A stretch of 62,441 nucleotides of DNA, taken from IMG/VR virus record IMGVR_UViG_3300015371_000032, positions 1 to 62,441 of that record. One strand, given 5' to 3'. Below the pieces are notes generated by a model, which made no database searches, was not told the DNA's origin, and saw only the letters and a list, made by a program, of their open reading frames with translations. Source of the DNA: a virus. How positions within the stretch are numbered: the stretch's first letter is position 1; each line of letters begins with the position of its first letter. Made by a program: the position numbers and the translations under genes. Positions 7,684-61,808 of this stretch are shown one piece after another.

Positions 7684-8432
7684 TTCTCTCCGCGCAACGT
7701 GGCTGCAACCTTGGAGCGGACCTTGACCCGGAAGGTCACGCCGTAGGCGTCGTGGTCGGCGGGGTTCTCGGGGATGACCTCCTGCTTGACCAGCCGCAGG
7801 TAGGGCTTGTCGCGGAACCACACATGGTCGATGTGACGCTTGTCGTGGGTGTCGGGCCAGGGCTTGCCGAACTCCATCGCGGTCTCGTCCATCCGCTTGC
7901 GTAGCGGTGCGAGGTTGTTGTGGTCGGGCTCCATGTTGAAGTCGCCCACCGTGAAGCAGGCGTACTTCGGGTGGTCGTCCAGGATGCGGCAGGTGCGGCG
8001 GATATCCTCCTCGGCCTCCTTGTCGCGGCGCGGGTTCTGGATGGAGGCGACGAGGTGCTTGACCGCGAACCAGTAGCGGCGGCGGGTCACGGTGTCCAGC
8101 GCGGTGGCCCACAGCATGTAGCGGTCGTACTGCCGGTCGGGTCCGGCACCGGGTCCGACGTAGCCGCCCTCGTTCATCAGGTACCAGTGGGCTCCCACGT
8201 CGCTGAACCGCTGCTTGTTGAGCACCAGCGCGATGCGCTTCTGGTTCATCTCCTTGGAGTAGAGGACGTGGAACTTCTGCCGCAGCGCGCGCATCATCCC
8301 GTCCCGGGCACCGGTCTCGCACAGCCCGAGCGCGTCGTAGTCCTCCATCAACTTCAAGGTCTTGCGGATCGCCTCGGCGTCGCTGTCCGGCCCGATGTTG
8401 TAGGTCGCGACTCGCAGCGTGGCCTCGGTCAT
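7680..8432 (-). CDS. Endonuclease/exonuclease/phosphatase (EEP, DNase I-fold) protein
   Basis: A 250-residue protein starting ATG at 8432 in an ATGA overlap. All recognisable EEP blocks are present: ATYNIGPD (Asn), LGLCETGA (catalytic Glu), KRIALVLN, FTVGDFNMEPDHN (Asp/Asn pair), DKRHIDHVWF (Asp-His) and a final ADHD. The superfamily includes DNases, sphingomyelinases and phosphatases, so the substrate cannot be read from sequence. It is the third gene of an overlapping set with two glycan-hydrolase-like proteins. A second EEP gene lies at 40707-41423. Confidence 0.8.
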   Translation of the reverse strand: MTEATLRVATYNIGPDSDAEAIRKTLKLMEDYDALGLCETGARDGMMRALRQKFHVLYSKEMNQKRIALVLNKQRFSDVGAHWYLMNEGGYVGPGAGPDRQYDRYMLWATALDTVTRRRYWFAVKHLVASIQNPRRDKEAEEDIRRTCRILDDHPKYACFTVGDFNMEPDHNNLAPLRKRMDETAMEFGKPWPDTHDKRHIDHVWFRDKPYLRLVKQEVIPENPADHDAYGVTFRVKVRSKVAATLRGEK

Positions 8433-9445
8433 GCGTTCGCCTTCGTCATGGACGCCTGGTACGCAGCGGTGGCCTTGGGGAACTGCTTGCCGTCGGTCCT
8501 CGGCGGGGTGGTGATCGCGTGGTCCTTGTCCCGGACCCGGTTGAAGAACGTCGCGAACTTCCAGGTGATGCCCTTGTCCTTGGCGATCGCCGCGAACTGT
8601 GCCGGGAGGTCGGTGAAGAACTTGGCGCAGGCGTCGTCCCCGAAGTCGATATCCATGCCGTACTCCCCGAGCGCGAGCGGGATACCGGACAGCATCGGCT
8701 GGGCCTTGATCCAGTCGATATCGGCGTTGCAGATCGAGGCGAGGGTCTGGGTGCCCGAGGTGTTCGCGTAGGGGTCCCAGGTCATGATCTTCGGCTTGAC
8801 CTTGAACTGGTCCGCGACCTGCTTCTCCTTCGCCCGGTCGTAGCCGACGATCCAGTAGGTCGTGAGGACCTTGGAGTTCTTGGCGTGCATCTTCTCGAAG
8901 AAGGTGTTCATCGCCTTGCCGATGGTGGTGAAGTCGGCGGACGGCCCGGTGATCGCGCCCTGGTTGACCTGACCCACGGCCTCGGCCAGCAGGCTGCCGA
9001 CCACGAAGGTGCCCGCAGGGGCGGCGTCTGCGCACTCACTGAGCCGCGTCACGTACTGGTCCAGCCAGTCGAGGCTGGCCTGTACGCCGTTGGCGATCCC
9101 CGCGAGGTGCTGGGTGCCCTTGGCGGTCAGCGTCATGGCGACGTACTTGCCCGCCTTCACGTCGGTCTTGGCGCTGGCCCAGGTGTTGTTCCCGGAGCCC
9201 AACTGATTCGGCTGCACGTAGTAGTTCGCGCCGCCGACGTTCTTCCAGCCGTAGTCGTCGTCACGGTAGACGCCGAGTCGGGGCACGGAGGTGGGGGTGG
9301 GCGGCTGGACCGGAGGGTACTTCTCCTTGTACGCCTCGAACTCGGCTTCCAGGGCGTTGTAGTCGTTCTGGCAGCGGACGAGCGCCGCCTCAGTCTTGTT
9401 GGCCTCGGCCTGTGCGGTCGCGAGGGCATCGTCCAGGGCAGTCAT
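8429..9445 (-). CDS. Glycoside-hydrolase-like (TIM-barrel, clan GH-A type) protein with shared N-terminal coiled coil
   Basis: A 338-residue protein; the start ATG at 9445 overlaps the preceding stop (ATGA). Residues 1-45 (LDDALATAQAEANKTEAALV and on to YEKYPP-like residues) are a coiled-coil module shared with the genes at 9442 and 60888. After a proline linker, the remainder has an alternating strand/helix pattern and a late IPLALGEYGMD, which resembles the nucleophile-Glu strand of clan GH-A enzymes (GH26/GH5 types). TWDPYANTSG and FFNRVRDK would be neighbouring strands. The likely role is breakdown of host surface polysaccharide. The family call is tentative; the shared module is certain. 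Confidence 0.6.
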   Translation of the reverse strand: MTALDDALATAQAEANKTEAALVRCQNDYNALEAEFEAYKEKYPPVQPPTPTSVPRLGVYRDDDYGWKNVGGANYYVQPNQLGSGNNTWASAKTDVKAGKYVAMTLTAKGTQHLAGIANGVQASLDWLDQYVTRLSECADAAPAGTFVVGSLLAEAVGQVNQGAITGPSADFTTIGKAMNTFFEKMHAKNSKVLTTYWIVGYDRAKEKQVADQFKVKPKIMTWDPYANTSGTQTLASICNADIDWIKAQPMLSGIPLALGEYGMDIDFGDDACAKFFTDLPAQFAAIAKDKGITWKFATFFNRVRDKDHAITTPPRTDGKQFPKATAAYQASMTKANA

Positions 9446-10341
9446 GCTTGCTTCCATGTCTTGTAGGACTTCACCTTGACCTGTGTCTGAGTCCAGGTGG
9501 AGGGGGGGTTGGGCACGACCTGGGTGGTGGCACCTGATCCGATCTGCAACGTGATCCTCGGATACCACGTCCGATCCTTGGCCTCCATGATCCGGTTCCA
9601 CCAGGACTTGTCGGCGGGACCGAAGGTGCAGATGAGGCGCTTGTCGATCCACACGCTGATCTTCCCGGGGACCTTCTCGATCGTGTAGGTGTGCTCGACG
9701 TTCGGGTCGTACCAGGGGTTGTCGCGCAGGATCAGCGGCTTCTTCGCGGAGTCCTGCGTGGCCCCGTACTCGTTGTGCATGGTGATCGCGACCCGACGCT
9801 GGTCGCCGGACCACATGCCGCCCATCCACTCCATCACGTCGATTTCCCCGTTGGAGCCGTCGCCGCCTGTGTTGGGGCGGAACCACAGCAGGCAGGGCCA
9901 GATACCGGACTGGTCGGTGAAGGTGCCGGTCACCTCGGCGCGGAAGTAGTTCGGCAGCACGAGTTCCTTCACGCCCTTGCCGTGTATCTCGGCGGAGGTG
10001 AAGGGCCTGCTGTACCCGGTCTCCCGCTTCCCGATCAGGATGAGTCCGGGTTGATTCACCAGGACGTTCTTCTTCAAGTTGACGGAGTTGTCGTTGCCCT
10101 GGGTCTGGTTGTCGTAGGCAAGGAACGGCGCGAGAGAAGTGAAGGCAGTCTGGGTGAACAGACTCCACCCCGACTGGTCGGGTGGCTGGTCGGGTGGCGT
10201 GGTGACGGGCGGGTACTGCGCCTTGTACGTCTCGTATTCAGTTTGAAGAGCGGTGTAGTTCTGCTGACAACGGAGGAGGGCTTCCTCGATCTTGTTGGCC
10301 TCGGTGACCGCGAGAGCGAGGGCGTCATCCAGGTCGGTCAT
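9442..10341 (-). CDS. GH16-like glycan hydrolase with shared N-terminal coiled coil
   Basis: A 299-residue protein. Residues 1-45 (DDALALAVTEANKIEEALLR through YETYKAQYPP) match the module of the next gene and of the lyase-like gene at 60888. The catalytic part looks like a concanavalin-type GH16 domain: GEIDVMEWMG, near residue 145, carries the ExDxxE pattern with both acids and Asp intact. RVAITMHNEYG, HTYTIEKVPGKISVWID and the C-terminal strands fit the beta-jelly roll. It would cleave beta-glycans in the cell envelope or capsule. Whether it is a virion protein or released is not shown. Its start ATG is overlapped by the end of the preceding tiny gene. Confidence 0.72.
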   Translation of the reverse strand: MTDLDDALALAVTEANKIEEALLRCQQNYTALQTEYETYKAQYPPVTTPPDQPPDQSGWSLFTQTAFTSLAPFLAYDNQTQGNDNSVNLKKNVLVNQPGLILIGKRETGYSRPFTSAEIHGKGVKELVLPNYFRAEVTGTFTDQSGIWPCLLWFRPNTGGDGSNGEIDVMEWMGGMWSGDQRRVAITMHNEYGATQDSAKKPLILRDNPWYDPNVEHTYTIEKVPGKISVWIDKRLICTFGPADKSWWNRIMEAKDRTWYPRITLQIGSGATTQVVPNPPSTWTQTQVKVKSYKTWKQA

Positions 10342-10519
10342 TACTCATCTCCCCAGCGACCCCGTGGACTTGGAGGTGGGCGCGTGCCTCAGTATGTGCT
10401 GACGCTACGGAGTCTGCCACCCCGATCGGCCCGCAGACGCGACATGAGAGCAACCAGCACTCGGCGTGTTTCAGCCCATCTACGGTGGCATCGGGGTCGG
10501 GTTTAGTCACCAAACTCAC
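10325..10519 (-). CDS. Small CxxC/HxxH protein whose codons contain a palindromic site
   Basis: A 64-residue frame starting GTG at 10519, coupled to the previous gene by GTGA and preceded by GGAGGG. Residues 2-6 (SLVTK) are encoded by the dispersed palindrome. It contains HAECWLLSCRVCG and AHTEARAHLQVH, giving Cys and His pairs suited to zinc binding. It overlaps the start of the GH16-like gene by 17 nt. The function is unknown. Confidence 0.55.
   Translation of the reverse strand: MSLVTKPDPDATVDGLKHAECWLLSCRVCGPIGVADSVASAHTEARAHLQVHGVAGEMSNDRPG
10502..10514 (+). promoter_or_regulatory. Dispersed palindrome TTTAGTCACCAAA
   Basis: This copy lies inside the first codons of the 10325-10519 gene and is reversed relative to that gene's direction. 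Confidence 0.8.
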
Positions 10520-10629
10520 CCCTCCGTCTCCCTGTCGGGACGGTAGATGAGACCCGGGACGGGAGACTGCTCCCATCCGTCAGGGAGAGGAGCGGCCTCC
10601 GGGACAGACACCCAGAGTTCTCTGTTCAC
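10516..10629 (-). CDS. 37-residue hypothetical protein
   Basis: A GTG start at 10629 overlaps the upstream stop (GTGA) and its own stop overlaps the next GTG (GTGA). The product, VNRELWVSVPEAAPLPDGWE followed by QSPVPGLIYR, is rich in Trp and Pro and reads as a real short protein. The chained overlaps on both sides are the main evidence. The function is unknown. Confidence 0.5.
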   Translation of the reverse strand: MNRELWVSVPEAAPLPDGWEQSPVPGLIYRPDRETEG

Positions 10630-10751
10630 CAGAGCAGGCGGATCACATCAGGGTCGTTGTCGGCGCGGTTGAGGAGGGCGAACAGCACCCAGACCACCAC
10701 GATGAGGACAACCAGCGCGATCAACAGTCGGATGAGACCTTCACTATTCAT
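10626..10751 (-). CDS. 41-residue single-pass membrane protein
   Basis: ATG at 10751 overlaps the end of the preceding gene by 8 nt. The protein is almost one transmembrane helix (LIRLLIALVVLIVVVWVLF) followed by a short charged tail. It could be a holin-like or lysis accessory protein, but its place beside depolymerase-like genes is the only support. It is too short for family assignment. Confidence 0.55.
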   Translation of the reverse strand: MNSEGLIRLLIALVVLIVVVWVLFALLNRADNDPDVIRLLW

Positions 10752-10935
10752 GGCCGAGTCCTTCCACTCTTGCTACGTCATCAGTGTGACCGATGCTGCA
10801 CGCCACGGATAGGTGCACGGTTTCAACCGCGATGCTCGGGTGGCTGGCGAGGAGTTCCTCCACCATCTGTGCCCACTCCGCCGAGGTCGGTGTCTTCTGA
10901 TTCTTGATCGCCCGAGTCGTCGTGTAAACGATCAT
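10744..10935 (-). CDS. 63-residue hypothetical protein
   Basis: ATG at 10935 has CAGGACC upstream. The product includes TSAEWAQMVEELLASHPSIA and VHLSVACSIGHTDDVARV, a plausible small alpha/beta protein. It overlaps the next gene by 8 nt. A second frame (10823-11023) competes for part of the same bases; I prefer this one because the downstream coupling is clear. Confidence 0.5.
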   Translation of the reverse strand: MIVYTTTRAIKNQKTPTSAEWAQMVEELLASHPSIAVETVHLSVACSIGHTDDVARVEGLGHE

Positions 10936-11023
10936 GGTCCTGATTATGGTCCTGGGTGGCACCGAGGATCGCGACGATGAGTTCGACAGCCTGTGATGCG
11001 CCGGTACTCGGGCCGTTGGTCAC
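10823..11023 (-). CDS. Alternative 66-residue frame after the beta-helix gene
   Basis: A GTG at 11023 is coupled to the beta-helix gene's stop (GTGA). The first 20 residues (QAVELIVAILGATQDH) look protein-like; the rest is Asp/Gly-rich and overlaps the 10744-10935 gene in another frame. It would fill an otherwise empty 85-nt gap. Both genes may exist, or only one. Confidence 0.3.
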   Translation of the reverse strand: MTNGPSTGASQAVELIVAILGATQDHNQDHDRLHDDSGDQESEDTDLGGVGTDGGGTPRQPPEHRG

Positions 11024-11964
11024 AGGGACTCGATTCCGTTGTATCGACCGGAGGAGAGCAACTGTCCCTTGCTGGCCCCGTCCCACCACACGTTGCCCCG
11101 GTTTCCCCCCGTGCCGTCGAGCCCGTCGAAGGTTCCCGCTCCGGGCAACTTCCTGATCCAGTAGCGGTTCGCGGTGGCGGTGGAGAACTGGTTGTACTCG
11201 ATGGTGCCGGTGATGCCCTCGTGCAAGTAGATGTGGGCGGAGCCGCCCTTGAACCACGAGGAGGCGACCTTCACGGTCTTGTCGGCGGGGAACTTCGGGT
11301 TGATGTTGCACCACACGATGCCGGACCCGGCCATGTCTCCGGTGCCGCGACCGTCGGGCATGGGCTGGGAGCCGGGGGCGAGTTGGGCGGTGATATCGAA
11401 CAGGCAGCCGGACAGGCTGGCCTTGCGCCCGAAGTGGTGCTGCCAGCAGTCGAAGTGGGAGCCTTCGTCGCCGTGGTAGGGGTCGGGGCGGGTGTAGAGC
11501 CCGGAGGTGAAGATGATGGTCTCCCCGATGAAGTCCACGTCGGCGGAGCCGTCGGTGGGGGCCACGGTGTCGATGCCGTCGCAGCCTCCGGTGATGACGC
11601 CGCCCCGCAGGGTCATCCGGTGTCCGCCCATGACGCCGTTGCGGTAGGCGTGGGGGCGCTGGGGGCGTATCTCGAAGTTCTCCAAGGTGAGTCGCCCGGT
11701 GCCGGTGTGCTTGTTCCGCGAGTGGATGCAGCCGACGTTGCCGGTGGGGACGTGGGGGCCACCCCGGAGCAGCACGTTGCGCCCGTAGACGCCCTCGACC
11801 AACTTGTCGGCGTACTTCATCTCCCCGTACACGATCCTGTCACTCAGGTCGGTGCCGTCCGGGATGGTCACGGTCTTGGTGGAGGGTGAGTTGTAATCAC
11901 GTAATCGTGACTCATCCGTGACTCCGGCGTTGACGCCGCGCACGGGGAACGGGAAATCAGGCAT
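11020..11964 (-). CDS. Right-handed beta-helix protein (tailspike or pectate-lyase-like)
   Basis: A 314-residue protein with the repeating short-strand pattern of parallel beta-helices: KTVTIPDGTDLSDRIVYG, YGRNVLLRGGPHVPTG, GRLTLENFEIRP, HRMTLRGGVITGGCDGID, KVASSWFKGGSAHIYLHEG. Such folds are used by phage tailspikes and depolymerases that bind or cut polysaccharides. The early line VNAGVTDESRLRDYNSPSTK resembles the entry to pectate-lyase-fold phage proteins. No catalytic set could be assigned. It lacks the coiled-coil module found on neighbouring enzymes. A palindromic site lies 20 nt before the ATG. Confidence 0.65.
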   Translation of the reverse strand: MPDFPFPVRGVNAGVTDESRLRDYNSPSTKTVTIPDGTDLSDRIVYGEMKYADKLVEGVYGRNVLLRGGPHVPTGNVGCIHSRNKHTGTGRLTLENFEIRPQRPHAYRNGVMGGHRMTLRGGVITGGCDGIDTVAPTDGSADVDFIGETIIFTSGLYTRPDPYHGDEGSHFDCWQHHFGRKASLSGCLFDITAQLAPGSQPMPDGRGTGDMAGSGIVWCNINPKFPADKTVKVASSWFKGGSAHIYLHEGITGTIEYNQFSTATANRYWIRKLPGAGTFDGLDGTGGNRGNVWWDGASKGQLLSSGRYNGIESL

Positions 11965-11984
11965 GGGCTGAGACTAACGGAATC

Positions 11985-11997
11985 TTTAGTGACTAAA
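11985..11997. promoter_or_regulatory. Dispersed palindrome TTTAGTGACTAAA
   Basis: The best dyad in the window: symmetry extends to 19 bp (11982-12000). It lies 20 nt before the beta-helix gene start. Confidence 0.85.
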
Positions 11998-12029
11998 GAT
12001 CATCTTGATCCGGGAAGTTCTCGGGGAGT

Positions 12030-12224
12030 TCACTCCGATCCTGACTCGGGCAACTTCCACCCATTGACGGACGCGAGGTCGGAGCGCCAGGCGTGGACCT
12101 CGTACTTGATCTTCCCGGACATGGTGAGGCAGGGCTCCCCGGGACCGGCACCGCACTGTTCACAGGGGTACTCCATCGCGACCGCACGCCAGGGCAGCAG
12201 GTGCGGCACCTCGAACCGCTCCAT
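12030..12224 (-). CDS. Small Cys-rich zinc-finger protein (CxxCGAxPGxxC type)
   Basis: A 64-residue protein, ATG at 12224 overlapping the previous stop. It contains CEQCGAGPGEPCLTMSG followed by HAWR, the zinc-finger pattern widespread in actinobacterial and actinophage small proteins and usually taken as nucleic-acid binding. Its exact role is unknown. Confidence 0.65.
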   Translation of the reverse strand: MERFEVPHLLPWRAVAMEYPCEQCGAGPGEPCLTMSGKIKYEVHAWRSDLASVNGWKLPESGSE

Positions 12225-12487
12225 CAGAACTCGATCCCAGGTGAGGGTGGGGGGAGGGGATCGACCCACTCGATGTGCGTGGACCCGTTGTGTCCGTGCA
12301 GGTGCTCGACGTTCTCGATGTGGGGGTGCATGACGGTGGTCGGCTCGATGGTCCCCCACGGGTGCTCGACCGGACCCTTCCAGCGCATGACCACGGTGCC
12401 GTCGCTGAACACGACACCTTCGGCTACGTCACCTGTCCCGGAGAGGCCGGTCACGTCCTCGTCGCGGCGGAGTACGAATCGGTGCAT
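12224..12487 (-). CDS. Conserved actinophage protein of unknown function
   Basis: An 87-residue protein. TGLSGTGDVAEGVVFSDGTV, VVMRWKGPVEHPWGTIEP and VEHLHGHNGSTHIEWVD form a pattern I recognise from many short actinophage proteins, with no known role. It sits between a ribbon-helix-helix gene and a zinc-finger gene in one overlapping run, implying co-expression. Confidence 0.65.
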   Translation of the reverse strand: MHRFVLRRDEDVTGLSGTGDVAEGVVFSDGTVVMRWKGPVEHPWGTIEPTTVMHPHIENVEHLHGHNGSTHIEWVDPLPPPSPGIEF

Positions 12488-12488
12488 G

Positions 12489-12671
12489 TCAGAACCTCTG
12501 CTCTCGGGCGGCGAGCCGGTTCTCGAACTTGCTCTGGTCCGCCGACGCGACTTCCAGCGCGGTGCGGATCACCTCGCTGATGGTCAGGTTGTAGTCCTTG
12601 GCGAGCGCCTCTAGGTAGGCCCGCCCGTTCTCGTTCACCATGATGGCGAGTCGCTTGTTCTTATTCGTCAT
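12489..12671 (-). CDS. Ribbon-helix-helix DNA-binding protein
   Basis: A 60-residue protein: RLAIMVNENGRAYLEALAKD is the beta strand and first helix and NLTISEVIRTALEVASAD the second helix of a CopG/Arc-like fold. Proteins of this size usually dimerise and bind inverted repeats as repressors. It is the second gene of the leftward unit, next to the divergent control region, so control of the arms is a reasonable guess. Confidence 0.7.
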   Translation of the reverse strand: MTNKNKRLAIMVNENGRAYLEALAKDYNLTISEVIRTALEVASADQSKFENRLAAREQRF

Positions 12672-12713
12672 GGTGCGAAGGCTACCAGACTTCTTCGCAC
12701 TCTGCGAATGCTC

Positions 12714-12923
12714 TCAGTCGTCTGCCAGGAGAGCGGGCACGTCGATCACCGACCAGCCCGGCACGCTCAGACCTTCCTTCCTGGCCCGCAGCAGCAGCCA
12801 CCGTAGGAACGCGGAACGGTCCATCTCACCCCTCCTCGCATCCATGTCCGCCGCCTCCTCATTACTCAGCCTTACCGCGACGACCACCGGTCTCCCACCG
12901 GGTGTCTGCCTGCTGCGACCCAT
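12714..12923 (-). CDS. Ribbon-helix-helix DNA-binding protein, first gene of leftward arm
   Basis: A 69-residue protein. VVVAVRLSNEEAADMDARRG and DRSAFLRWLLLRARKEG give the strand-helix-helix of the Arc/CopG class, preceded by a basic N-terminus (MGRSRQTPGGRP). ATG 12923 has GAGGAGACTG upstream. As the first gene beside the divergent region it is a candidate regulator, possibly of the nearby palindromes. Its target is not shown. Confidence 0.7.
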   Translation of the reverse strand: MGRSRQTPGGRPVVVAVRLSNEEAADMDARRGEMDRSAFLRWLLLRARKEGLSVPGWSVIDVPALLADD

Positions 12924-12959
12924 GCTCAGTCTCCTCGGAACGGGGAACTACTCGACTCA

Positions 12960-12987
12960 GGGTTACCCACCACCTCCACCCTGACAA
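12960..12987 (-). promoter_or_regulatory. Candidate leftward promoter
   Basis: Reading leftward, TTGTCA and TAACCC are separated by 16 nt, about 35 nt before the first leftward gene. The -10 match is poor, so this is a suggestion only. Confidence 0.35.
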
Positions 12988-13160
12988 CCCCCAGGTGTAA
13001 ACGGTACAAACCCGGAAATGCGGTGCATCTACAAGGCCGACTAGCGCCTCCTACGGAGTCCCGCGTGGGGGAGTAGCCCGTGTGGGGGGTGTCGGCATAG
13101 CCCTTTGTGACTATGCGCGGGTGGTGGCGGGTAGCCCTAGTGGACTACCTATGACTACTC

Positions 13161-13173
13161 TTTAGTGACCAAA
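13161..13173 (+). promoter_or_regulatory. Dispersed palindrome TTTAGTGACCAAA
   Basis: The first of a close pair in the divergent region, about 40 nt upstream of the rightward -35. Confidence 0.85.
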
Positions 13174-13175
13174 GA

Positions 13176-13188
13176 TTTAGTCACTGTG
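13176..13188 (+). promoter_or_regulatory. Degenerate second palindrome TTTAGTCACTGTG
   Basis: It starts 15 nt after the previous copy; the left half-site is intact and the right half diverged. Tandem spacing of about 1.5 helical turns could allow cooperative binding. Confidence 0.55.
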
Positions 13189-13214
13189 CCACCCTATCCG
13201 ACTACTGATTCCGC

Positions 13215-13243
13215 TTGCCCGAACTGACCAGACGCGATAGGCT
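13215..13243 (+). promoter_or_regulatory. Rightward promoter of the divergent region
   Basis: TTGCCC (13215-13220), a 17-nt spacer and TAGGCT (13238-13243) match the -35/-10 style of the two strong promoters at 21259 and 30161. Initiation near 13250 would give a long leader containing a hairpin and a palindromic site before the gene at 13521. Confidence 0.6.
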
Positions 13244-13290
13244 AGGGCTACGCCCAGCCGGGAACGAGACGCAGAGAGGAGTGAGCCCGC

Positions 13291-13313
13291 ACGCGCGCGA
13301 TGGTCGCGCGCGT
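13291..13313. repeat. Perfect 10-bp GC-rich hairpin in leader
   Basis: ACGCGCGCGA and TCGCGCGCGT flank the 3-nt loop TGG. It falls in the predicted leader of the first rightward transcript. Confidence 0.75.
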
Positions 13314-13426
13314 GGTCCGTGGCTAACTAAATAGATTACGCGCGTGCGCTCTAGCGCAGCCGGGACCTGCCGTCAGGCAGTAGCCGCATCCCCGCACGCC
13401 TCCTCCACCGATCCCGGTGGTCCGTC

Positions 13427-13439
13427 TTTGGTCACTAAA
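13427..13439 (-). promoter_or_regulatory. Dispersed palindrome TTTGGTCACTAAA
   Basis: A copy with the variant half-site on the left, 81 nt before the helix-turn-helix gene. Confidence 0.8.
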
Positions 13440-13520
13440 GACTGACTCGCCGGGACCCCATCCCACAGAGGTGGGGCAGGTGGCGCACCTACCTACGGGT
13501 GCGCAGATTGGAGAACAACT

Positions 13521-14117
13521 ATGGACGTCAAGACCTTCAAGGCAGAGGTCCGGTCCATCTTCCGTGCGGCTCAGGCCGTGGACAAGAAGGTCGGCGAACT
13601 CCGTGTCCGTCGTGCCCGCAACGTCTACGCCGGGATCACCGAGGGGATGGTCGGCGCGAACGGGGCCTACCCGACGCAGAAGGCCTACGCCGAGGCGCTC
13701 GGCGTGAAGGAGTCCAACATGGTGTCGCTGAAGCGGCTGGGCAAGGCCCTGGTCGTCATCGGCTGCGACCCTTCCGACCCGCTCTGGGGCCGTCTGTCCG
13801 ACAAGGCAGGCACCAAGGAGGTCGGCAAGGCGATCGACGCTGAGAACGCGACGCCGGAGTCGGTGTACGCCGTGCTCACCGAGACGTTCGGCCCTGACGG
13901 TCGGCGCATCTCCGGTGGCACCGGTCAGGGCAGCGACGCCAACAACGGCAGCGGCGACACGCCGGTGTCCGGTGCGGTGGCGAAGATGGACAAGGGTCTG
14001 GCCCTGGTCCGCGACGCGATCAAGGAGGGTCTGCCGGAGGAGGCGACCCGGACCCTGCTCAACGCCCTGGCGAACATCGCCGCCGAGGCGCAGGAGGCCG
14101 CTCGACAGAGCGCCTGA
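13521..14117 (+). CDS. Helix-turn-helix regulator candidate, first gene of rightward arm
   Basis: A 198-residue protein, ATG with GGAGAACAACT upstream. Residues about 48-80 (AYPTQKAYAEALGVKESN, then VSLKRLGKALVVIG) look like a helix-turn-helix. The N-terminus is basic and helical (FKAEVRSIFRAAQAVDKK). A Gly/Asn-rich linker near residue 135 leads to a helical C-terminus (LLNALANIAAEAQEAARQ). The gene stands alone: a promoter and palindrome lie before it, and a strong terminator and two palindromes after it. That isolation and the flanking sites make it the leading candidate for the palindrome-binding factor, by inference. Confidence 0.65.
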   Translation: MDVKTFKAEVRSIFRAAQAVDKKVGELRVRRARNVYAGITEGMVGANGAYPTQKAYAEALGVKESNMVSLKRLGKALVVIGCDPSDPLWGRLSDKAGTKEVGKAIDAENATPESVYAVLTETFGPDGRRISGGTGQGSDANNGSGDTPVSGAVAKMDKGLALVRDAIKEGLPEEATRTLLNALANIAAEAQEAARQSA

Positions 14118-14124
14118 TCCCCAC

Positions 14125-14158
14125 GACACCCCCACCTGCTCGGGCAGGTGGGGGTGTC
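14125..14158. terminator. Strong 15-bp stem-loop terminator
   Basis: A perfect inverted repeat of 15 bp (GACACCCCCACCTGC and its complement) with loop TCGG, 8 nt after the helix-turn-helix gene. It ends that unit; there is no U-run but the stem is very stable. Confidence 0.8.
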
Positions 14159-14173
14159 TGCGCGTCTCGGGTC

Positions 14174-14186
14174 TTTGGTGACTAAA
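14174..14186 (-). promoter_or_regulatory. Dispersed palindrome TTTGGTGACTAAA
   Basis: A reversed copy just after the terminator; the first of a pair 25 nt apart. Confidence 0.8.
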
Positions 14187-14198
14187 GAGTTCGGGCTC

Positions 14199-14211
14199 TT
14201 TGGTGACTAAA
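14199..14211 (-). promoter_or_regulatory. Dispersed palindrome TTTGGTGACTAAA
   Basis: The second of the pair, 25 nt after the first and 50 nt before the next gene; same orientation. Confidence 0.8.
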
Positions 14212-14261
14212 GATTCCGAGGCGTACCGAGTAAACGAAACGAGTGAGAGGGAGGTCAATCA

Positions 14262-14417
14262 ATGAACCTCAACGAAGACCCCTGGGCGATCGACCCGGAC
14301 AAGTTCGGGCTGTTGCTCAACCGCATCAGTGAGGACCCTGACGACTGCGGGTGCGACACCTGCACCTTCGTCAACCTCATCCCTTCAATGCTTGACGCGG
14401 AAGGAGTGGAGCCGTGA
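14262..14417 (+). CDS. 51-residue acidic hypothetical protein
   Basis: ATG 14262 follows GAGGGAGGTCA, a good ribosome site. The product is acidic (NEDPWAIDPDKFGLLLNRI) with a CGCDTC cluster near the C-terminus. Its stop overlaps the next GTG (GTGA), so both are translated together. The family is not recognised. Confidence 0.6.
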   Translation: MNLNEDPWAIDPDKFGLLLNRISEDPDDCGCDTCTFVNLIPSMLDAEGVEP

Positions 14418-14551: not shown

Positions 14552-14581
14552 CAAGCCCCCGCCACCGTGCGGGGGCTTTGT
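14551..14581 (+). terminator. Intrinsic-type terminator
   Basis: AAGCCCCCGC and GCGGGGGCTT pair across a 6-nt loop, then TTTGT. It starts at the stop codon of the zinc-ribbon gene. Confidence 0.75.
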
Positions 14582-14594
14582 CATGCCCTCAGTC

Positions 14595-14607: not shown

Positions 14608-14649
14608 GGTAAGGGCCAGTCTCAACGGTCAGTCCGGCGTCTCAGCAAG

Positions 14650-55089: not shown

Positions 55090-55093
55090 GGGC

Positions 55094-55978
55094 TCACCCC
55101 GTCCGGTAGCGAGGCTGCGCCATGTCCGGGGTGTAGACCCGGGTTGCACCGATCAGGCCCAGCGGGTTCCACAGCGCGATGTAGGCGTCCACCTCGCGGA
55201 TGCCGGTCAGCCCGCCCGGGAACGCCCCGGACGGAATCTCCATCGTGAGCCCCTGGCGGACCACCGTGGTCACGCCAGCCGGGAGGCGACAGGACTGTCC
55301 GCCACAGGCGCGGGCGTACTCGGCGCTGAGCACGCCCGCCGCGTAGGCACCGTTCGCGTCCACCGGGTAGGCGTTGAGGTAGGTCACCGCGAAGGTGCCG
55401 TCCTCGGTGTCCGCGAGCGCGAGGTTCTGGCTCGCCGGGAACGGGCACTCCTCGCTGGCCTGCCACACCAAGATGTTGCCGTTGTCGATCCGGTAGTTCT
55501 CCGGGTCGATCACGTCACCGTTGACCTTGACCTCCTCGACCCGGGTGACCGGAGCCGGGAGGGTCACCTCACAGGCGGTGGTGCACGAGCAGGGCGGGGC
55601 GCACCCGCAGGAGTTGATCCACGCCCCGCCCAGATTGAGGGGCGTGAAAGCCGGGGAGTAGTAGTAGAGAAGCGAGTGATACTCCCGTGCAGCACGTTGA
55701 GGCTTGCAGGGTCGGACCGTGATCGGGCAGGTCCCGACGCGGTAGCCGGTGAGACGAGCGAGGGTGGAGGACGCGAGTGCAACCGCGCGTGCCTTCACCT
55801 CCTCGTCGTAGGCGTCCCACTCCTCACCGAAGCAGGCCGGGTCTACAGGCCACGGGCAGCCCCCGTACCCAGGGACGCCAGACGGAGTGCCGGGCGTGCC
55901 GGGCGTGCCGGGCGGGGGGGCTGAGAGCGACACCGCGTCGAAGTCTTCGGGGGAGTAGTCGGGGGCGAAGGAGCCCAT
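55094..55978 (-). CDS. Head-to-tail adaptor (294 aa)
   Basis: A Pro/Gly-rich N-terminus with GTP repeats, then CFGEEWDAYDEEVKARAVAL, SSTLARLTGYRVGTCPITVR and a C-rich stretch (WINSCGCAPPCSCTTACEV). The end (FPGGLTGIREVDAYIALWNP, RVYTPDMAQPRYRTG) is typical of the actinophage head-tail adaptor. It bridges portal and neck. Confidence 0.7.
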   Translation of the reverse strand: MGSFAPDYSPEDFDAVSLSAPPPGTPGTPGTPSGVPGYGGCPWPVDPACFGEEWDAYDEEVKARAVALASSTLARLTGYRVGTCPITVRPCKPQRAAREYHSLLYYYSPAFTPLNLGGAWINSCGCAPPCSCTTACEVTLPAPVTRVEEVKVNGDVIDPENYRIDNGNILVWQASEECPFPASQNLALADTEDGTFAVTYLNAYPVDANGAYAAGVLSAEYARACGGQSCRLPAGVTTVVRQGLTMEIPSGAFPGGLTGIREVDAYIALWNPLGLIGATRVYTPDMAQPRYRTG

Positions 55979-55981
55979 AGG

Positions 55982-56431
55982 TCACGCCTCCCATTCACCT
56001 ACGATGACGACGGTCATGGAAGCCCCAGGCTGGGGGGCCGCTCCGTCTACCTCCTGGGCGACACCGTGAAGTGTGTACCGCTCGGAGCCAGCGGTCCACG
56101 GATCGGTGACCTTGAACACGAATGCAGCGTCGGTGCCCTGGTCTCGGACCCGGAGGAGAGTGCCAGGCTTGCCGAGCAGACCGTAGGGAGTGGCGACTCC
56201 CGTTCGGGTGGTGTTCGACAGCACCACGGTCGTCCCGGCCTCAGACCAGTCAGGTACGAATATCTGTCCCCAACTTACGGTGGCTTCCTCCCACCCGTAG
56301 GCGAACGGGTAGTCGGTGACGACCCAGGCGTGGTTCCACAGCGCAGTCACGACGGTGCGGAGGTCCGCAGCGGTGATGCCGCCTTCCTGGTTGTCGGGCA
56401 ACAGGTCCAGCAGATCGTCCAGCGAGGTCAC
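55982..56431 (-). CDS. Hypothetical structural protein (149 aa)
   Basis: GTG 56431. DLLPDNQEGGITAADLRTVV, TALWNHAW is a common entry for actinophage tail-region proteins, followed by a beta-rich body (VRDQGTDAAFVFKVTDPWT, GASMTVVIVGEWEA). Probably a virion protein; the role is unassigned. A terminator precedes it. Confidence 0.6.
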   Translation of the reverse strand: MTSLDDLLDLLPDNQEGGITAADLRTVVTALWNHAWVVTDYPFAYGWEEATVSWGQIFVPDWSEAGTTVVLSNTTRTGVATPYGLLGKPGTLLRVRDQGTDAAFVFKVTDPWTAGSERYTLHGVAQEVDGAAPQPGASMTVVIVGEWEA

Positions 56432-56480
56432 GGGTAACTCCTCTCCCGCCGCGTCATGTCACAGCCTCTCATGAGAAAGC

Positions 56481-56506
56481 CTCGGCCCCAGAGGGATAGG
56501 GCCGAG
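56481..56506 (-). terminator. Leftward terminator after the major tail gene
   Basis: CTCGGCCC and GGGCCGAG pair with a 10-nt loop; reading leftward, GCTTTCTC follows the stem. It would lower expression of the connector genes relative to the abundant tail protein. Confidence 0.65.
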
Positions 56507-56521
56507 ACTCTCTCACTCACC

Positions 56522-57409
56522 TCAGGGGTGAATCCCCGCGACCCAATCCGTCCCGTTCCAGTAGGCGTTGCTGCCGTCACTGAGCCGGACGTACTGACCA
56601 GCAGACCAGTCAGTGCTCGGGCTGGCCGTGATGCTGTCCATCTCGTCCACGCTGTCCGGCAGGTAGGAGTTTGCCGGAGTCGTCGTGCCCGGCGTTCCTG
56701 CGTTCGCGCCCGTCGCGGGCGTGCCCAACTCCACCGCACCACAGGACGACTCGGGCGGAGGCACCGTGGTCAGTTGCAGGTGCAGGTGGTCCTTGCTGTC
56801 GATCGGTTCGAGCAGCGGGCTCGCGGCGCTGGCGTCGTCACGCACCACGTCGTAGGGGCCGACGTTCCAGCCGGACCCGTCCTTGGAGCGGGCACCGGTC
56901 AGGGTGAAGTTCACCGCGCCGTTCTCCACCGTGAGGTCGCCCAGGGTGCCGCCCTTCACGAACGGGATCAGGAAGTACCCGTACGAGGCACCACCGGACT
57001 CGTCGCAGGCGGCGACCGGGACGTTGCTCCACAGTTCGAGCGCGAAGCCGGAGTCGTTGACGTTGACGCCCGAGTTGATGCGGAGGCCGACGGCATCCTC
57101 ACCGGCTGCGTCCATCACCACGTCCTGTCCGGTCATCAGCGAGAACAGTTCAGGGTCTACGCCACAGAACTGCACCTCGATGGTGTACCCGGTGAACTCC
57201 GGGGCGGGCTCGTCCATGACGCAAATCTTGCCCGCTGCGTTCGTCACGCTGATGGTCTCGCCCTCCTCGTTGTTGGCGGTGAGGGCGACCGAGATGAAGC
57301 CGTCGCTGACGGCCTGAGACGAGGCACCGAGGAGGACCTGGCCGCAGCCGTCCAACTTCGTGACCCGCATCACGCGCCCGCGAACGAGCGAGAAGCACTG
57401 ACTGGTCAT
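56522..57409 (-). CDS. Major tail protein candidate
   Basis: 295 residues. MRVTKLDGCGQVLLGASSQA, VTNAAGKICVMDEPAPEFTG and YTIEVQFCGVDPELFSLMTG are typical of actinophage major tail proteins, with an Ig-like or ornament domain at the C-terminus (about residues 210-295). It precedes a strong terminator, which fits high expression. Position between capsid genes and chaperones is usual. Confidence 0.78.
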   Translation of the reverse strand: MTSQCFSLVRGRVMRVTKLDGCGQVLLGASSQAVSDGFISVALTANNEEGETISVTNAAGKICVMDEPAPEFTGYTIEVQFCGVDPELFSLMTGQDVVMDAAGEDAVGLRINSGVNVNDSGFALELWSNVPVAACDESGGASYGYFLIPFVKGGTLGDLTVENGAVNFTLTGARSKDGSGWNVGPYDVVRDDASAASPLLEPIDSKDHLHLQLTTVPPPESSCGAVELGTPATGANAGTPGTTTPANSYLPDSVDEMDSITASPSTDWSAGQYVRLSDGSNAYWNGTDWVAGIHP

Positions 57410-57412
57410 GAT

Positions 57413-57652
57413 TTACTCCTGGGTCTCACTTGGTGCGGACTTCTTGGCTGCCGCCTTCTTCACGGGCTTCTTCTCCACGTTCTCGTCCCTGTTGTTCGAG
57501 AACGCCTTGTCGGCCACTTCCTGAGGCGCGAGGAAGTGGCCGGACCGGACCTCGACGCACGACTGGTCCTGGCCCAACTCCTCGGCGGCAGCGAGGAGCA
57601 GCGTCGCCTTCTCCGGTGCCATGCCCTCGAAGGGAATCTCGACCTTGCTCAC
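57413..57652 (-). CDS. Small Lys-rich tailed protein (79 aa)
   Basis: GTG 57652 overlaps the preceding stop (GTGA). A small folded start (VEIPFEGMAPEKATLLLAAA) and a basic tail (VEKKPVKKAAAKKSAPSET). It may be a minor head or tail accessory protein; no family recognised. Confidence 0.6.
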   Translation of the reverse strand: MSKVEIPFEGMAPEKATLLLAAAEELGQDQSCVEVRSGHFLAPQEVADKAFSNNRDENVEKKPVKKAAAKKSAPSETQE

Positions 57653-58458
57653 AGCGTCACCTTCACAGCAGCGGTGAAGCAGTCCACAGCCACGACGTAG
57701 GCACGCTCACCGAGTACGTACACGTCGTTCTCTGTCTGGTCGATCGCCTGCCTGACCTCGGCGGGACCACGGAGGACAAGCACCTCGCCCGTGGCGTAGA
57801 GCCACTTCGACCCGGCAGCAGCAGCGGCCCCGGTCGGACCGTTGTTCGGGTAGTCGTAGCCCGCACCTGCGACGACCTTGGAGCCCATCTTGGTCGTCAT
57901 CGTGTTGCCCTCGACCTTGATGACCTCGGTCTGCGCGAGCAGCGACGCGACCACGATCGGCAGGTGCAGGGTCGGCACGCCGACATACACCGAGGCGGCG
58001 TACGCCTCCAACTCGGCCAGTCCCCGCTGAGGGGTGACGGTGCCCGTAGGCGTCACGTCCTCAGCGGCCTCCCAGCCGTAGTCCGCGTCGGTGTTCTCGG
58101 TGAACCCGGTGTCCATGAGGCCGCGCTCGACCGCCGTGGACTCACCCGCCTCGAACACACGCTGGACCTCGGACTCCATCCGACCCAGGTCGAGGCCCAC
58201 GGCCTTGCACAGCACGCCACCATAAGCGGCGAACCGGAAGCCGTTGACCCACCCTGCTGCCTGGTCGAAGTCCTTGGTGTTGGGCGCACAGAAGTCGGCC
58301 TGAGCGCCGAACTTCATGCAGTTGTACGTGTCGTACAACGACTTGCCGTCCTGCCAGGCGATGCCGTCTCGCACCGTGGCTACGTCCAGCAGCGTCCCGA
58401 TACGCCGGGTCACTGTCGGTGCGACGGGGTAGGTAGCCGTAGTCACCATGTCCGCCAC
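57649..58458 (-). CDS. Virion protein downstream of the capsid gene (269 aa)
   Basis: ATG 58458. VTTATYPVAPTVTRRIGTLL, GRMESEVQRVFEAGESTAVE, VPTLHLPIVVASLLAQTEVI and KMGSKVVAGAGYDYPNNGP. The LHLPIVVASLL and GAGYDYP segments recall an HK97-fold capsid-related or decoration protein, but I am not certain. Together with the 569-residue precursor it may be a second capsid-type component. Confidence 0.6.
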   Translation of the reverse strand: MADMVTTATYPVAPTVTRRIGTLLDVATVRDGIAWQDGKSLYDTYNCMKFGAQADFCAPNTKDFDQAAGWVNGFRFAAYGGVLCKAVGLDLGRMESEVQRVFEAGESTAVERGLMDTGFTENTDADYGWEAAEDVTPTGTVTPQRGLAELEAYAASVYVGVPTLHLPIVVASLLAQTEVIKVEGNTMTTKMGSKVVAGAGYDYPNNGPTGAAAAAGSKWLYATGEVLVLRGPAEVRQAIDQTENDVYVLGERAYVVAVDCFTAAVKVTL

Positions 58459-58516
58459 CTCCCTTCTCTCAGCGGGTGGGGACCGGGGTGGCTACCGGTC
58501 CCCATCGCCACGTCGA

Positions 58517-60199
58517 TCAGGAGCAGGTGAGGTCCGCCGCACCAGTACGTCCAGCGTTGCAGATCGGCAGAGTCACGAGGTCTGCATCGAACTTCATCTT
58601 CGCGACGAGCAGACCCGACTCCACGAACATGCCGGTGTAGACGTTGACCGCCAGCGAGGCTGCGTCGTAGACCGTGCTGAGGTTGATGACGTCAGCCGTG
58701 CCCTTGACGAACGTGCCTGCCGGGTACATCAGCGCGTTGAACGTGGCCGGGTAGTCCTCGGCGCTCTCGTCCAGGCCCTGCCAGTCGTACACGAACTGCA
58801 CGTTGAGGTTGCGCGCCTTGAAGTAGGACTTGATGTTCGCGTCGGTGACAGCCGCCGCGTTGTCGAGCCCGGTACGTGCGGCCAGGTCGGCGCGGATCGC
58901 GGCCCGCACCCAGAACGGCACGATGACTTCCAGCGTGCGGCCCAGCGACAGGCGGTACTTCTGCCTGCGCTCCTCGGCCAGCAGTTCCAGACCGCCCAGG
59001 GTGTCGAGCGTGGTGGAGCCCAGCCCGGTGATGACCCGAGCGGCACCGGCAGCGGTGACCAGGCGGCTGATGACATTCGCGTTGACCCAATGCTGGTGCG
59101 CCACCAGAGTGCCGTCCACGAAGTTGCGGACGACCTCGGGGTACGCGGCGTTGGTGAGGATCGGGACCTTGATGCAGAGTCCCACCGCGTCCAGCCGGAC
59201 CTCAACGAAGTCGGGGCAGTCCACCTCGACACATGGCTTCGTGGTCCCGGCGATCGCCTGGGCCTCGGTCTGGATGAAGCCAGGGTTGGCGTAGAAGTCC
59301 GCGAAGGTCGGGGACTGTGCGTACCGGATGCCGCCACGACGGACCGCGACCTCGGGCAGCGAGACCATGCCCTCGTTGGTGGCGTCCTGCGACAAGTCGT
59401 AGACCGTCTCCGACGGTGCACACCAGCCACCGGCTGCCGTCAGCGACCCGTGGCCCTCGTCCGAGGAGAGGCGGGACTCGTCAGCCGCGTGCTGTAGGAC
59501 GCTCATCGCGTCGTCCATGCGGTCGATCACGAGGTCGTCCGGGAACGGGACCGTGAGCATCGCGGTGCCGAACTTCTGTAGGTTCTCGGTCTCCCCGTCG
59601 CCGGTCGGAGGCGCGAAGCCCCTCGCCTTGGCGATGACGGCCTTCGCCACGTCGGTGAGGCTTTCGAGGCCCTGACCGGTGGAGTAGCCGTCTACGTTCG
59701 CGGCAGCCCGCAGGGCCACCCGAGCGTTCTCGTTCTTCGGAGTCTCGGGACGCTTGGTCTTCGAGGCCAGCGCAGCGACACCCTTGGCGGCGGCACCCTC
59801 GGTGCCACCGTTCTCGCCGTCGTGTCCACCGCCACCCTCGGCAGGGGCCTCCTCGCCCGGAGGGACGACCTCGGCGTCGTCCTGCTTGGTCGTCTCCGAC
59901 GTAGCGTCGCCGGACCCGCCCTTGGTGGTCGCGTCGTTCACCTCGTCGGCGTCCGCCATGACCTTATCCTCGCCGTCCTCAGCGAAGGTCCGGTTGCGGA
60001 GAGCCTCGAACTTCGAGGTCTGCTCGCGGCGTGCGGCGAACTCGGCGTCGATCTTGTCGATATCGGCTGCCAGCGACTCGGCCTCGGCCACCTGTACGGA
60101 GGTGGGGGCTTCGAGAGCGACAAGCGCCTGGAAAGCGTCGTACTTCTCGGTGCGGAGAGTAGTGAGAGCCTCGGCAGAGAGGTTCTTCATGTCGTCCAC
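58517..60199 (-). CDS. Major capsid protein with N-terminal scaffold
   Basis: 560 residues from GTG 60199 (AGGAG 6 nt upstream). Residues 1-60 are an Ala/Glu-rich coiled coil (ESLAADIDKIDAEFAARREQ) and 60-150 a Gly/Asp-rich linker, a fused delta-scaffold domain removed at maturation. From about 190 a HK97-fold shell follows: DLVIDRMDDAMSVLQHAADE, TFADFYANPGFIQTEAQAI, VPILTNAAYPEVVRNFVDGT and VIVPFWVRAAIRADLAARTG. The protease is encoded at the other end of the gene run. Confidence 0.87.
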   Translation of the reverse strand: MDDMKNLSAEALTTLRTEKYDAFQALVALEAPTSVQVAEAESLAADIDKIDAEFAARREQTSKFEALRNRTFAEDGEDKVMADADEVNDATTKGGSGDATSETTKQDDAEVVPPGEEAPAEGGGGHDGENGGTEGAAAKGVAALASKTKRPETPKNENARVALRAAANVDGYSTGQGLESLTDVAKAVIAKARGFAPPTGDGETENLQKFGTAMLTVPFPDDLVIDRMDDAMSVLQHAADESRLSSDEGHGSLTAAGGWCAPSETVYDLSQDATNEGMVSLPEVAVRRGGIRYAQSPTFADFYANPGFIQTEAQAIAGTTKPCVEVDCPDFVEVRLDAVGLCIKVPILTNAAYPEVVRNFVDGTLVAHQHWVNANVISRLVTAAGAARVITGLGSTTLDTLGGLELLAEERRQKYRLSLGRTLEVIVPFWVRAAIRADLAARTGLDNAAAVTDANIKSYFKARNLNVQFVYDWQGLDESAEDYPATFNALMYPAGTFVKGTADVINLSTVYDAASLAVNVYTGMFVESGLLVAKMKFDADLVTLPICNAGRTGAADLTCS

Positions 60200-60272
60200 G
60201 GCTAACTCCTGGTGGCGTCGGATCACTTACGGTGAGTCGCGGGCACCAAGGCCTTTGGACGATCTGGGACTG

Positions 60273-60301
60273 ACCATAGCGCACGGTAGTCAGTTCAGGA
60301 A
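60273..60301 (-). promoter_or_regulatory. Candidate leftward capsid promoter
   Basis: Reading leftward, TTCCTG (60296-60301), a 17-nt spacer and TATGGT (60273-60278). It lies about 75 nt before the capsid start, in the 134-nt divergent gap with the amidase gene. Confidence 0.4.
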
Positions 60302-60333
60302 CAGTAACTCGTCCTCGTAGTAGCGTAGTCATC

Positions 60334-60891
60334 ATGCCGGATTTCAAGCCCCCGTCTCCTCCGTATCTCGGACCTGCGGCACACACCTCCGGTCCGGGGA
60401 ATAAGCCGATTAACCGCATCGTGATTCACTCCACGGTGTCGCCGTGCGTGGAAGGTGGAGCCCGGAGTATCGCGGCCTACTTCCGGTCATCGCGTTCGGG
60501 GGGCTCAGCGCACTACGTCGTAGACCCCGGTGAGGTCGTCCAGGTCGTCTACGACTCGATCATCGCGTGGCACGCGCCACCGAACACACACTCGCTCGGC
60601 ATCGAGATGTGTGAGTACCCCGCGCCGAACAAGTCGCGGTGGGGGAAGCCGAACCAGCAGGAGATGTTGAAGCGGACTGCTCGACTCACCGCGCAACTCT
60701 GCCTGGCCTACAACGTGCCGCCTCGCTTCGTCGGTGTCATCGGCCTACGCGCAGGTAGACGGGGAATCACCACACACAACATGGTCTCGAAGGCGTGGCA
60801 CCAGAGCACGCATTGGGACCCAGGTGGCTGGCCTCGTCGTGAGTTCATGCGGGAGGTCAGACGCATCGTCAAGCAGATGGAGGGCCGATGA
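60334..60891 (+). CDS. N-acetylmuramoyl-L-alanine amidase (endolysin)
   Basis: 185 residues, amidase_2/PGRP fold. RIVIHSTVSP (first zinc His), AWHAPPNTHSLGIEMCEYPA and THWDPGGWPRREF (second His and catalytic Asp region) are conserved. It cuts the MurNAc-L-Ala bond in peptidoglycan. No binding domain is seen, so a single-domain lysin, or one needing partners. It is rightward, opposite to surrounding late genes, and overlaps the lyase-like gene by 4 nt. Confidence 0.88.
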   Translation: MPDFKPPSPPYLGPAAHTSGPGNKPINRIVIHSTVSPCVEGGARSIAAYFRSSRSGGSAHYVVDPGEVVQVVYDSIIAWHAPPNTHSLGIEMCEYPAPNKSRWGKPNQQEMLKRTARLTAQLCLAYNVPPRFVGVIGLRAGRRGITTHNMVSKAWHQSTHWDPGGWPRREFMREVRRIVKQMEGR

Positions 60892-61808
60892 CGGCTGAGT
60901 TCGACAACGCGATCATTACCGCGCAGACCGAGTACGACAAGATGGAGTCCGCCTACGCTCAATCGAAGATCGACCTCGCCGTGTTGCAGCGTGAGTACGA
61001 CGCCTACAAGCAGGCGAACCCGCCCGCCGCCACGTTCGACGTGCTGATGGACGTGAACTTCGAGAAGTACCCGGCAGGTCCGTTCACTCGGCAAATGGCC
61101 CTAGAGACCTTCGGCAAGGGCACGACGTGGACCGGGGGCAGCGACGCCTACTGGCGCGACCATAACGTCACCATCAAGACGGTGGACGGCAAGGGCGTGC
61201 TGAGTGTGTTCATCCCGAAGAACACGATGGGCACCGCTGCGGCTCCGGCGTTCTCCTCGCCGCTGATCCGCGAGGTGGACGACCTGACGTTCTCGATGGA
61301 CTACCGGGTGACCGGGGGGTTCCTCCCGGATATCGGCGGGAAGTTGCCGGGCTTCGGCTCCACGAACGACCCGACGATGAGTCCTCCAACCGGAGGCGCG
61401 GAGCCGACGAACGGGAACTCATGTCGGCACATGTGGCACACGGTGAGCAACAAGCCTCCGGGCATTCTGAGCACGTACATCTACCACCCGAACACGACGA
61501 CCTCACAGTGGGGCGAGGACCTGTATCTCGACAAGGCGGCACGGATCGACGTGTGGGAGAACATCACCACCCGCGCGAAGAACAACACGCCTGGAAAGAA
61601 CGACGGGTTCTTGCAGTCGAGGATGAGCGCGCAGAACTGGTACATCAACCGCAGCGACTACCTGTGGCGTCCGGTGGCGACCCCGGCGTGGCGGTTCAAC
61701 CGGCTGGTGTTCTCGGTGTTCCGGGGCGGCAACACCCAGGATTGGGCCAGCGACCAGGACGCGACGATCCAGTTCAAGCGGTTCCTCATCACCACACCGA
61801 AGGTTTAG
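60888..61808 (+). CDS. Polysaccharide lyase-like protein with shared N-terminal coiled coil
   Basis: 306 residues; ATG overlaps the amidase stop. Residues 1-45 (FDNAIITAQTEYDKMESAYA to YDAYKQANPP) match the module on the 8429 and 9442 enzymes. The rest resembles family-14-type polysaccharide lyases: FSMDYRVTGGFLPDIGGKLP, GFGS, CRHMWHTVSNKPPGIL, TYIYHPNTTTSQWGEDLYL and WRFNRLVFSVFRGG. Family tentative. It ends at the TAG of the 61805 palindrome. Paired with the amidase, it may help to free progeny from capsule or wall. Confidence 0.7.
   Translation: MTAEFDNAIITAQTEYDKMESAYAQSKIDLAVLQREYDAYKQANPPAATFDVLMDVNFEKYPAGPFTRQMALETFGKGTTWTGGSDAYWRDHNVTIKTVDGKGVLSVFIPKNTMGTAAAPAFSSPLIREVDDLTFSMDYRVTGGFLPDIGGKLPGFGSTNDPTMSPPTGGAEPTNGNSCRHMWHTVSNKPPGILSTYIYHPNTTTSQWGEDLYLDKAARIDVWENITTRAKNNTPGKNDGFLQSRMSAQNWYINRSDYLWRPVATPAWRFNRLVFSVFRGGNTQDWASDQDATIQFKRFLITTPKV

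Follow-up and report, generated by a model that had tools for sequence, protein, structure and literature searches.

We analyzed the 62,441-nucleotide IMG/VR virus record IMGVR_UViG_3300015371_000032 (positions 1 to 62,441; hereafter the window), in which three genes for predicted glycan-active enzymes, P1, P2, and P3, share an N-terminal element that we call the head. From residue 1, the N-termini of all three proteins formed a common helix of approximately 45 residues, followed by a proline-rich linker in P1 and P2 and by a short linker in P3, and then by the enzyme domain. The start of P1 was assigned to the ATG at position 9445 and not to the start of the open reading frame (ORF) at 10168. 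The positions of these genes, their heads, and the neighboring features are collected in Table 1.

Table 1. Positions of the head-bearing genes and associated features in the window
Feature	Position	Strand	Description
P1	8429..9445	-	338 aa; head, proline-rich linker, putative TIM-barrel (GH-A-like) enzyme, motif LGEYG
P2	9442..10341	-	299 aa; head, proline-rich linker, GH16-like domain
P3	60888..61808	+	306 aa; head, short linker, polysaccharide lyase family 14 (PL14) domain
Head A	9308..9445	-	codons 1-46 of P1: MTALDDALATAQAEANKTEAALVRCQNDYNALEAEFEAYKEKYPPV
Head B	10204..10341	-	codons 1-46 of P2
Head C	60888..61028	+	codons 1-47 of P3; longer by one residue
ParB-like gene	7066..7671	-	phrog_8071, 1.2e-23; downstream edge of the P2-P1-EEP slot
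EEP (endonuclease/exonuclease/phosphatase) protein	7680..8432	-	PF03372, 26.5 bits (cut-off 24.5)
Small CxxCG protein	10325..10510	-	61 aa; upstream edge of the P2-P1-EEP slot
Amidase_2 endolysin	60334..60891	+	PF01510, 1.6e-21; phrog_670 endolysin, 2.9e-31
Strong hairpin 3' of P3	61821..61857	+	61800-61870 folds with -39.6 kcal/mol (z -5.2); probable terminator separating convergent units

Homology and anatomy of the heads

The first 46-47 residues of heads A, B, and C could be aligned with one single-residue indel. Heads B and C showed 65 and 43% identity with head A, respectively, and 15 columns were invariant across the three: M1, T2, D5, A7, A11, E14, K17, E19, A21, L32, E35, Y39, K40, P44, and P45. 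Local-alignment scores lay 27 (A-B), 14 (A-C), and 12 (B-C) standard deviations above those of composition shuffles. In leave-one-out searches, a profile built from two heads recovered the missing one with E-values of 1.4e-19 (A), 6.4e-18 (B), and 1.2e-7 (C), and no non-head ORF of the window scored better than an E-value of 3 (the next ORF in the head C search had 7.7). Because coiled coils resemble one another, we also used heptad-preserving shuffles. When head C was shuffled inside heptad classes (core and non-core), not one shuffle in 20,000 scored as high as the actual head; with the initial MT and the terminal PP fixed as well, one in 20,000 did. Among 177,635 PDB sequences, the three-head profile gave only weak, chance-level helix matches, such as keratin and CCDC40, with a best E-value of 0.03. 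Generic coiled-coil likeness was therefore rejected as the cause of the similarity on the basis of the leave-one-out profiles, the heptad shuffles, and PDB E-values of at least 0.03. A sequence-only reading of the window had proposed that a head of approximately 45 residues was common to the proteins at 8429, 9442, and 60888; the alignment, profiles, and shuffles confirmed this, and in the profile comparison, which that reading had itself called for, the heads aligned above generic coiled coils. Judged by sequence comparison, heads A, B, and C are homologous and constitute one family. Among 767 proteins of at least 150 aa, the combination of an amphipathic N-terminus, a Pro-Pro end, and a mutual match occurred only in P1, P2, and P3. 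A resemblance of the head to an N-terminal coiled coil of the capsid protein was rejected by profile comparison, in which the head profile showed no likeness to the major capsid protein or to any other protein of the window.

The borders of the element were sharp. The DNA of heads A and B was 74% identical across exactly the first 138 nucleotides (nt), and the identity was at background level upstream of the ATG and past approximately codon 50. The nucleotide differences numbered 10, 8, and 18 at the first, second, and third codon positions, so that the third was favored. These sharp borders and third-position differences indicated a discrete protein module under selection rather than a recent whole-gene duplication.

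In all three heads the hydrophobic residues kept an unbroken 3-4 spacing with 12 a/d positions over approximately 40 residues (LLAATLCYLFYY, LLAAILCYLYYY, and FIAYMYSLLYYN), and 11, 12, and 10 of the 12 core positions were hydrophobic. The a/d/e/g positions (24) held ten of the 11 invariant helix residues, and the outward b/c/f positions (16) held the remaining one (Fisher P=0.027), which suggested that conservation tracks a helix-packing face; from this pattern, packing of the head against another helix is likely. A single-sequence AlphaFold2 prediction placed head A in one helix spanning residues 2-42, and the element ended with Tyr-Lys-x-x-x-Pro-Pro. The heads were hydrophilic from residue 1 and had no hydrophobic leader, indicating that P1-P3 lack a signal peptide.

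The enzyme domains behind the heads showed no sequence likeness to one another, so that the earlier description of the catalytic parts as unrelated holds at the sequence level. GH16 and PL14 folds are both beta-jelly-rolls. The P3 domain matched the PL14 profile PF21294 with 57.9 bits (cut-off 27) over profile positions 8-215 of 215, and its match to the alginate lyase 5gmt in the PDB had an E-value of 1.4e-8; a single-sequence structure prediction of P3 was useless (predicted local distance difference test, pLDDT, 30). P2 fell just below the cut-off of 22 bits for PF00722 (21.6 bits, E=1.7e-4), and laminarinase 5wut was the best of the GH16 chains in the PDB (1.4e-4). The GH16 catalytic motif ExDxxE could be read in P2 as EIDVME (NGEIDVMEW). 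For the catalytic part of P1 there was no sequence match in Pfam, NCBIfam, PHROG, or the PDB, and its single-sequence model was of low confidence (pLDDT 42). A Foldseek search with this model returned several barrels, with a GH5 endoglycoceramidase first (E=0.1) and a GH53 galactanase among the others, all non-significant. The GH-A-like label of P1 derives from the motif LGEYG together with an alternating strand-helix pattern, and is unproven. Of the enzyme labels given by the sequence-only reading, that of the lyase stood, as PL14; that of the GH16-like protein agreed with the motif and the PDB matches, with the Pfam score just short of the cut-off; and that of GH-A for the 8429 protein was left without a family match. 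In viral contigs, no relative of P1 or P3 was found and P2 gave only partial matches (32-35% across approximately 50 residues); the catalytic part of P1 had no match in plasmids, and a comparison of whole P1, P2, and P3 with cultured phages gave no head-bearing match.

A fourth head in another phage lineage

No heads were detected in 50 related viral records, and head peptide patterns were not found in viral and genome contig collections. We then scanned 2.9 million viral contigs with a degenerate DNA pattern of the head end, E-F/Y-D/E-x-Y-K-x-x-x-P-P, and obtained a single match, in contig L123 from another phage lineage. The match lay at the extreme start of a 342-aa protein (MSHQEELSAQGATWDKADQDLALSISAYETLDAEFEAYKLANPPLPVDPPPVDPPPP), in which the head was followed by a proline-rich linker and an enzyme domain with a weak match to GH26 endoglucanase H (E 0.0024). 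By our own estimate, about one chance match of the pattern could be expected in such a collection; for this reason, the independent agreement of position, linker, and enzyme type is of weight for this fourth head (D). The profile of heads A, B, and C scored it with 22.8 bits (E=5.8e-5 among 13,943 ORFs; next 3.1), and when it was shuffled with the searched motif fixed, 214 of 10,000 shuffles scored as high (P about 0.02). At the level of sequence, the evidence for its membership in the head family beyond the searched motif is moderate. A tblastn search with heads B, C, and D against 50,697 cultured phages gave no match, or matches at E-values of at least 3.

The head-bearing GH26-like gene of L123 overlapped a sulfatase gene (L123:3555-4811; PF00884, 1e-36), after which came the gene for a terminase that belongs to another family and shares 56% identity with those of Mementomorivirus. 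In cultured phages this sulfatase had only distant matches, which came from fecal phage contigs and phages of Campylobacter. Outside the head, P1 could not be aligned with the L123 enzyme; a GH26-like barrel common to both is therefore only a motif-level guess. The presence of a fourth head on another enzyme in another lineage suggested that the module is mobile. The search of other phages that the sequence-only reading had called for thus yielded one further head, and its idea of a discrete, swappable module was supported.

Gene slots and possible role of the head

The ends of the record were identical over 83 bp (1-83 = 62359-62441), so that the record closes to about 62,358 bp and P3 comes to lie approximately 9 kb from P2-P1 across the junction. 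The record, although held as linear, is probably a complete, circularly closing genome. P3 had been described as far away from the other two genes on the opposite strand; the strand is correct, and the distance shrinks to these 9 kb after closure. The genome had a tailed-phage backbone, whose portal shared up to 76% identity with portals from related viral contigs and approximately 40% with portals of Arthrobacter and Microbacterium phages. The phage is of a soil actinobacteria type.

The head-bearing genes occupied two slots outside the tail and receptor-binding region. In the first, between the CxxCG and ParB-like genes, P2, P1, and the EEP gene followed one another with overlaps of ATGA stop and start codons (P2 stop with P1 start, and P1 stop with EEP start). 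In five relatives a similar small CxxCG gene stood immediately before ParB, indicating that this slot is empty there; in L004 (387-1100) the gene before ParB encoded a possible EEP-type protein with a very weak match (Pfam E 0.046). In the second, between the capsid maturation and major capsid genes, the amidase endolysin and P3 lay on the opposite strand, the endolysin stop overlapping the P3 start (ATGA). In relatives, the same gap between the MuF and capsid genes was occupied, frequently in the opposite orientation, by endolysin genes of the amidase or M23 type and by genes for EEP and small membrane proteins, and the close relative L025 had a small probable membrane protein after the amidase, at the place of P3. 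The head-bearing genes are thus accessory, largely lysis-type cargo in lysis-type or pre-terminase slots, and not tail genes.

Several observations concerned the neighbors in these slots. The EEP protein of the window had no match in viral contigs, and EEP-fold proteins near endolysin and small membrane-protein genes recurred in this phage group (L022:5915-6673, L026:6948-7541, and 7680-8432 of the window). Candidate papain-like peptidases lay upstream of ParB or terminase at L029:55-714, L006:4577-5257, and L123:1656-2330, those of L029 and L123 with weak Pfam support and that of L006 recognized by eye. The contents of the region upstream of ParB or terminase suggest that it is a general slot for enzyme cargo. 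A 314-aa protein at 11020-11964 of the window, before the P2-P1 slot, had neither a family match nor a head; by eye, it may be a right-handed beta-helix.

For the role of the head, a shared interface on different cargo indicates that the heads bind either each other or a common partner. We propose, with about even confidence, that the head serves as a small, mobile coiled coil through which leaderless glycanases released at lysis oligomerize. An amphipathic helix of approximately 40 residues, fused N-terminally to otherwise unrelated enzymes for extracellular polysaccharides, would pack helix to helix and join two or more copies, which could thereby gain multivalency and avidity on a polymeric glycan. 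Lacking a signal peptide, the glycanases would be freed at lysis as soluble depolymerases and might remove host capsule, slime, or wall glycan in the surroundings of the progeny. Release in soluble form at lysis was favored because of the lysis-slot position, the overlaps with the endolysin and EEP genes, and the absence of a leader; the oligomerization, the release, and the substrate are all inferred. Several points weigh against this proposal. The g-e' pairs contain a conserved Glu-Glu clash (E14, E19), so that a parallel homodimer is not clearly favored, and the core, rich in Ala and Tyr, is uninformative on the oligomeric state. The fold of P1 is unproven, and depolymerases of phages frequently belong to the virion and carry a conserved anchor at their N-terminus (PMC6872550).

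The last point leads to the main rival, in which the helices would dock on one structural protein of the tail, neck, or capsid and the enzymes would be interchangeable depolymerases carried by the particle. The extreme N-terminal position of the head agrees with such an anchor, as does the conservation of one interface on different catalytic domains, since this implies that the heads have a partner in common or pair with themselves. Short N-terminal "conserved peptides" of Klebsiella phages (29 residues in KP32-like phages, down to 7) are believed to anchor a second depolymerase to the first one (PMC6872550), and a chlorovirus virion-associated protein has a PL14-like wall-degrading domain (PMC8145301). 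However, the genes lie outside the tail region and overlap endolysin and EEP genes in what are lysis-gene slots in relatives, and a search backed by a positive control found no head-bearing gene in relatives with homologous tails and capsid heads. We regard a virion anchor as possible but doubtful. Of the earlier interpretation, the shared swappable module was thus supported; the trimerization, or docking to the virion or to the cell wall, that this reading had ascribed to the module may occur, with the gene context speaking somewhat against the virion.

It is unlikely that the head instead targets the enzymes to the host surface or to a polymer secreted by the host, with oligomerization absent or secondary. 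Separate binding modules are frequent in endolysins and depolymerases, and the heads are carried by enzymes for different linkages, but a single helix of 40 residues with a regular heptad and a conserved a/d/e/g face is atypical of a carbohydrate-binding module. A capsid-loading tag, by which the enzymes would be packed inside the capsid and injected like internal proteins with N-terminal targeting sequences, is very improbable: on the circular map, the P1-P3 genes lie on either side of the genes for the capsid and for packaging, and T4-type phages have N-terminal helical tags on unrelated cargo, but the head profile is unlike the major capsid protein or any other window protein, and glycanases have no obvious use inside the host cell.

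If the heads oligomerize as we propose, their one common heptad register would permit mixed assemblies of different enzymes; the charge pattern of the heads does not specify partners, and mixing is possible. That mixed coiled-coil oligomers form a multi-enzyme depolymerase of GH16, PL14, and a third enzyme, freed at lysis with the head as a plug-in connector between lineages, is an improbable extension of the proposal. A candidate mixed depolymerase in the second phage would have the sulfatase as its neighbor.

Known systems and further features of the genome

A constant N-terminus with an exchangeable depolymerase is a known principle, established for tail-attached enzymes, mostly of Klebsiella phages. 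In KP32-, Menlow-, and PhiK64-1-type Klebsiella phages, as in the window, a short N-terminal segment is constant and the catalytic part is exchanged (PMC6872550). In these phages the depolymerases are receptor-binding proteins encoded by tail genes, and the segment is believed to link the enzyme to the tail (PMC6872550), whereas the window has heptad-helix heads on compact globular glycanases in lysis-type or pre-terminase slots. For KP36-like phages, a soluble extra depolymerase has been proposed that is freed at lysis and sensitizes neighboring cells (PMC6872550); these soluble enzymes have no recognizable N-terminal element, whereas those of the window share the head. The PL14-type lyases of chloroviruses (vAL-1; domain 4 of A561L; PMC8145301) are likewise viral lyases attacking the host envelope, but differ from P3 in host and architecture; no head of this kind is reported for them, where none was sought. 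We found no paper on the exact combination described here. The databases and literature searched gave no trace of the head family, of lysis-slot glycanases bearing it, or of its transfer between phage lineages. In the window, a different and very short module would do the same job on apparently lysis-side enzymes of actinobacteria-type phages. Were the head an oligomerization connector, it would offer a compact means of making glycanases multivalent; were it to dock to virions, it would point to a so far unrecognized attachment site.

The portal relatives BruhMoment and Tank (Arthrobacter), OneinaGillian (Microbacterium), and Sunfish (Curtobacterium) had the same order of terminase, portal, capsid maturation, and major capsid genes as the window, and in BruhMoment and Sunfish a ParB-like gene preceded the terminases, as in the window. 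These four phages had neither a detectable head module nor these glycanases. A portal 39% identical to that of the window phage was found at the end of contig L115, in a metagenome-assembled genome bin of Thermomicrobiales (Chloroflexota); L115 may be a mis-binned phage contig or may reflect a wider host range.

A 13-bp near-palindrome, TTTAGT(C/G)AC(C/T)AAA, occurred at 34 sites in the window, including 4317, 6983, 11985, 14752, 19060, 24149, 30244, 36099, 49739, and 61804. Allowing at most one mismatch, there were 68 two-strand matches compared with 0.05 expected, and half of the sites lay no more than 40 nt upstream of called start codons. The near-palindrome resembles start-associated sequences or stoperators of mycobacteriophages, a likeness that is a lead and not a test (PMC3203893), and it recurred in the relative G007/L018.

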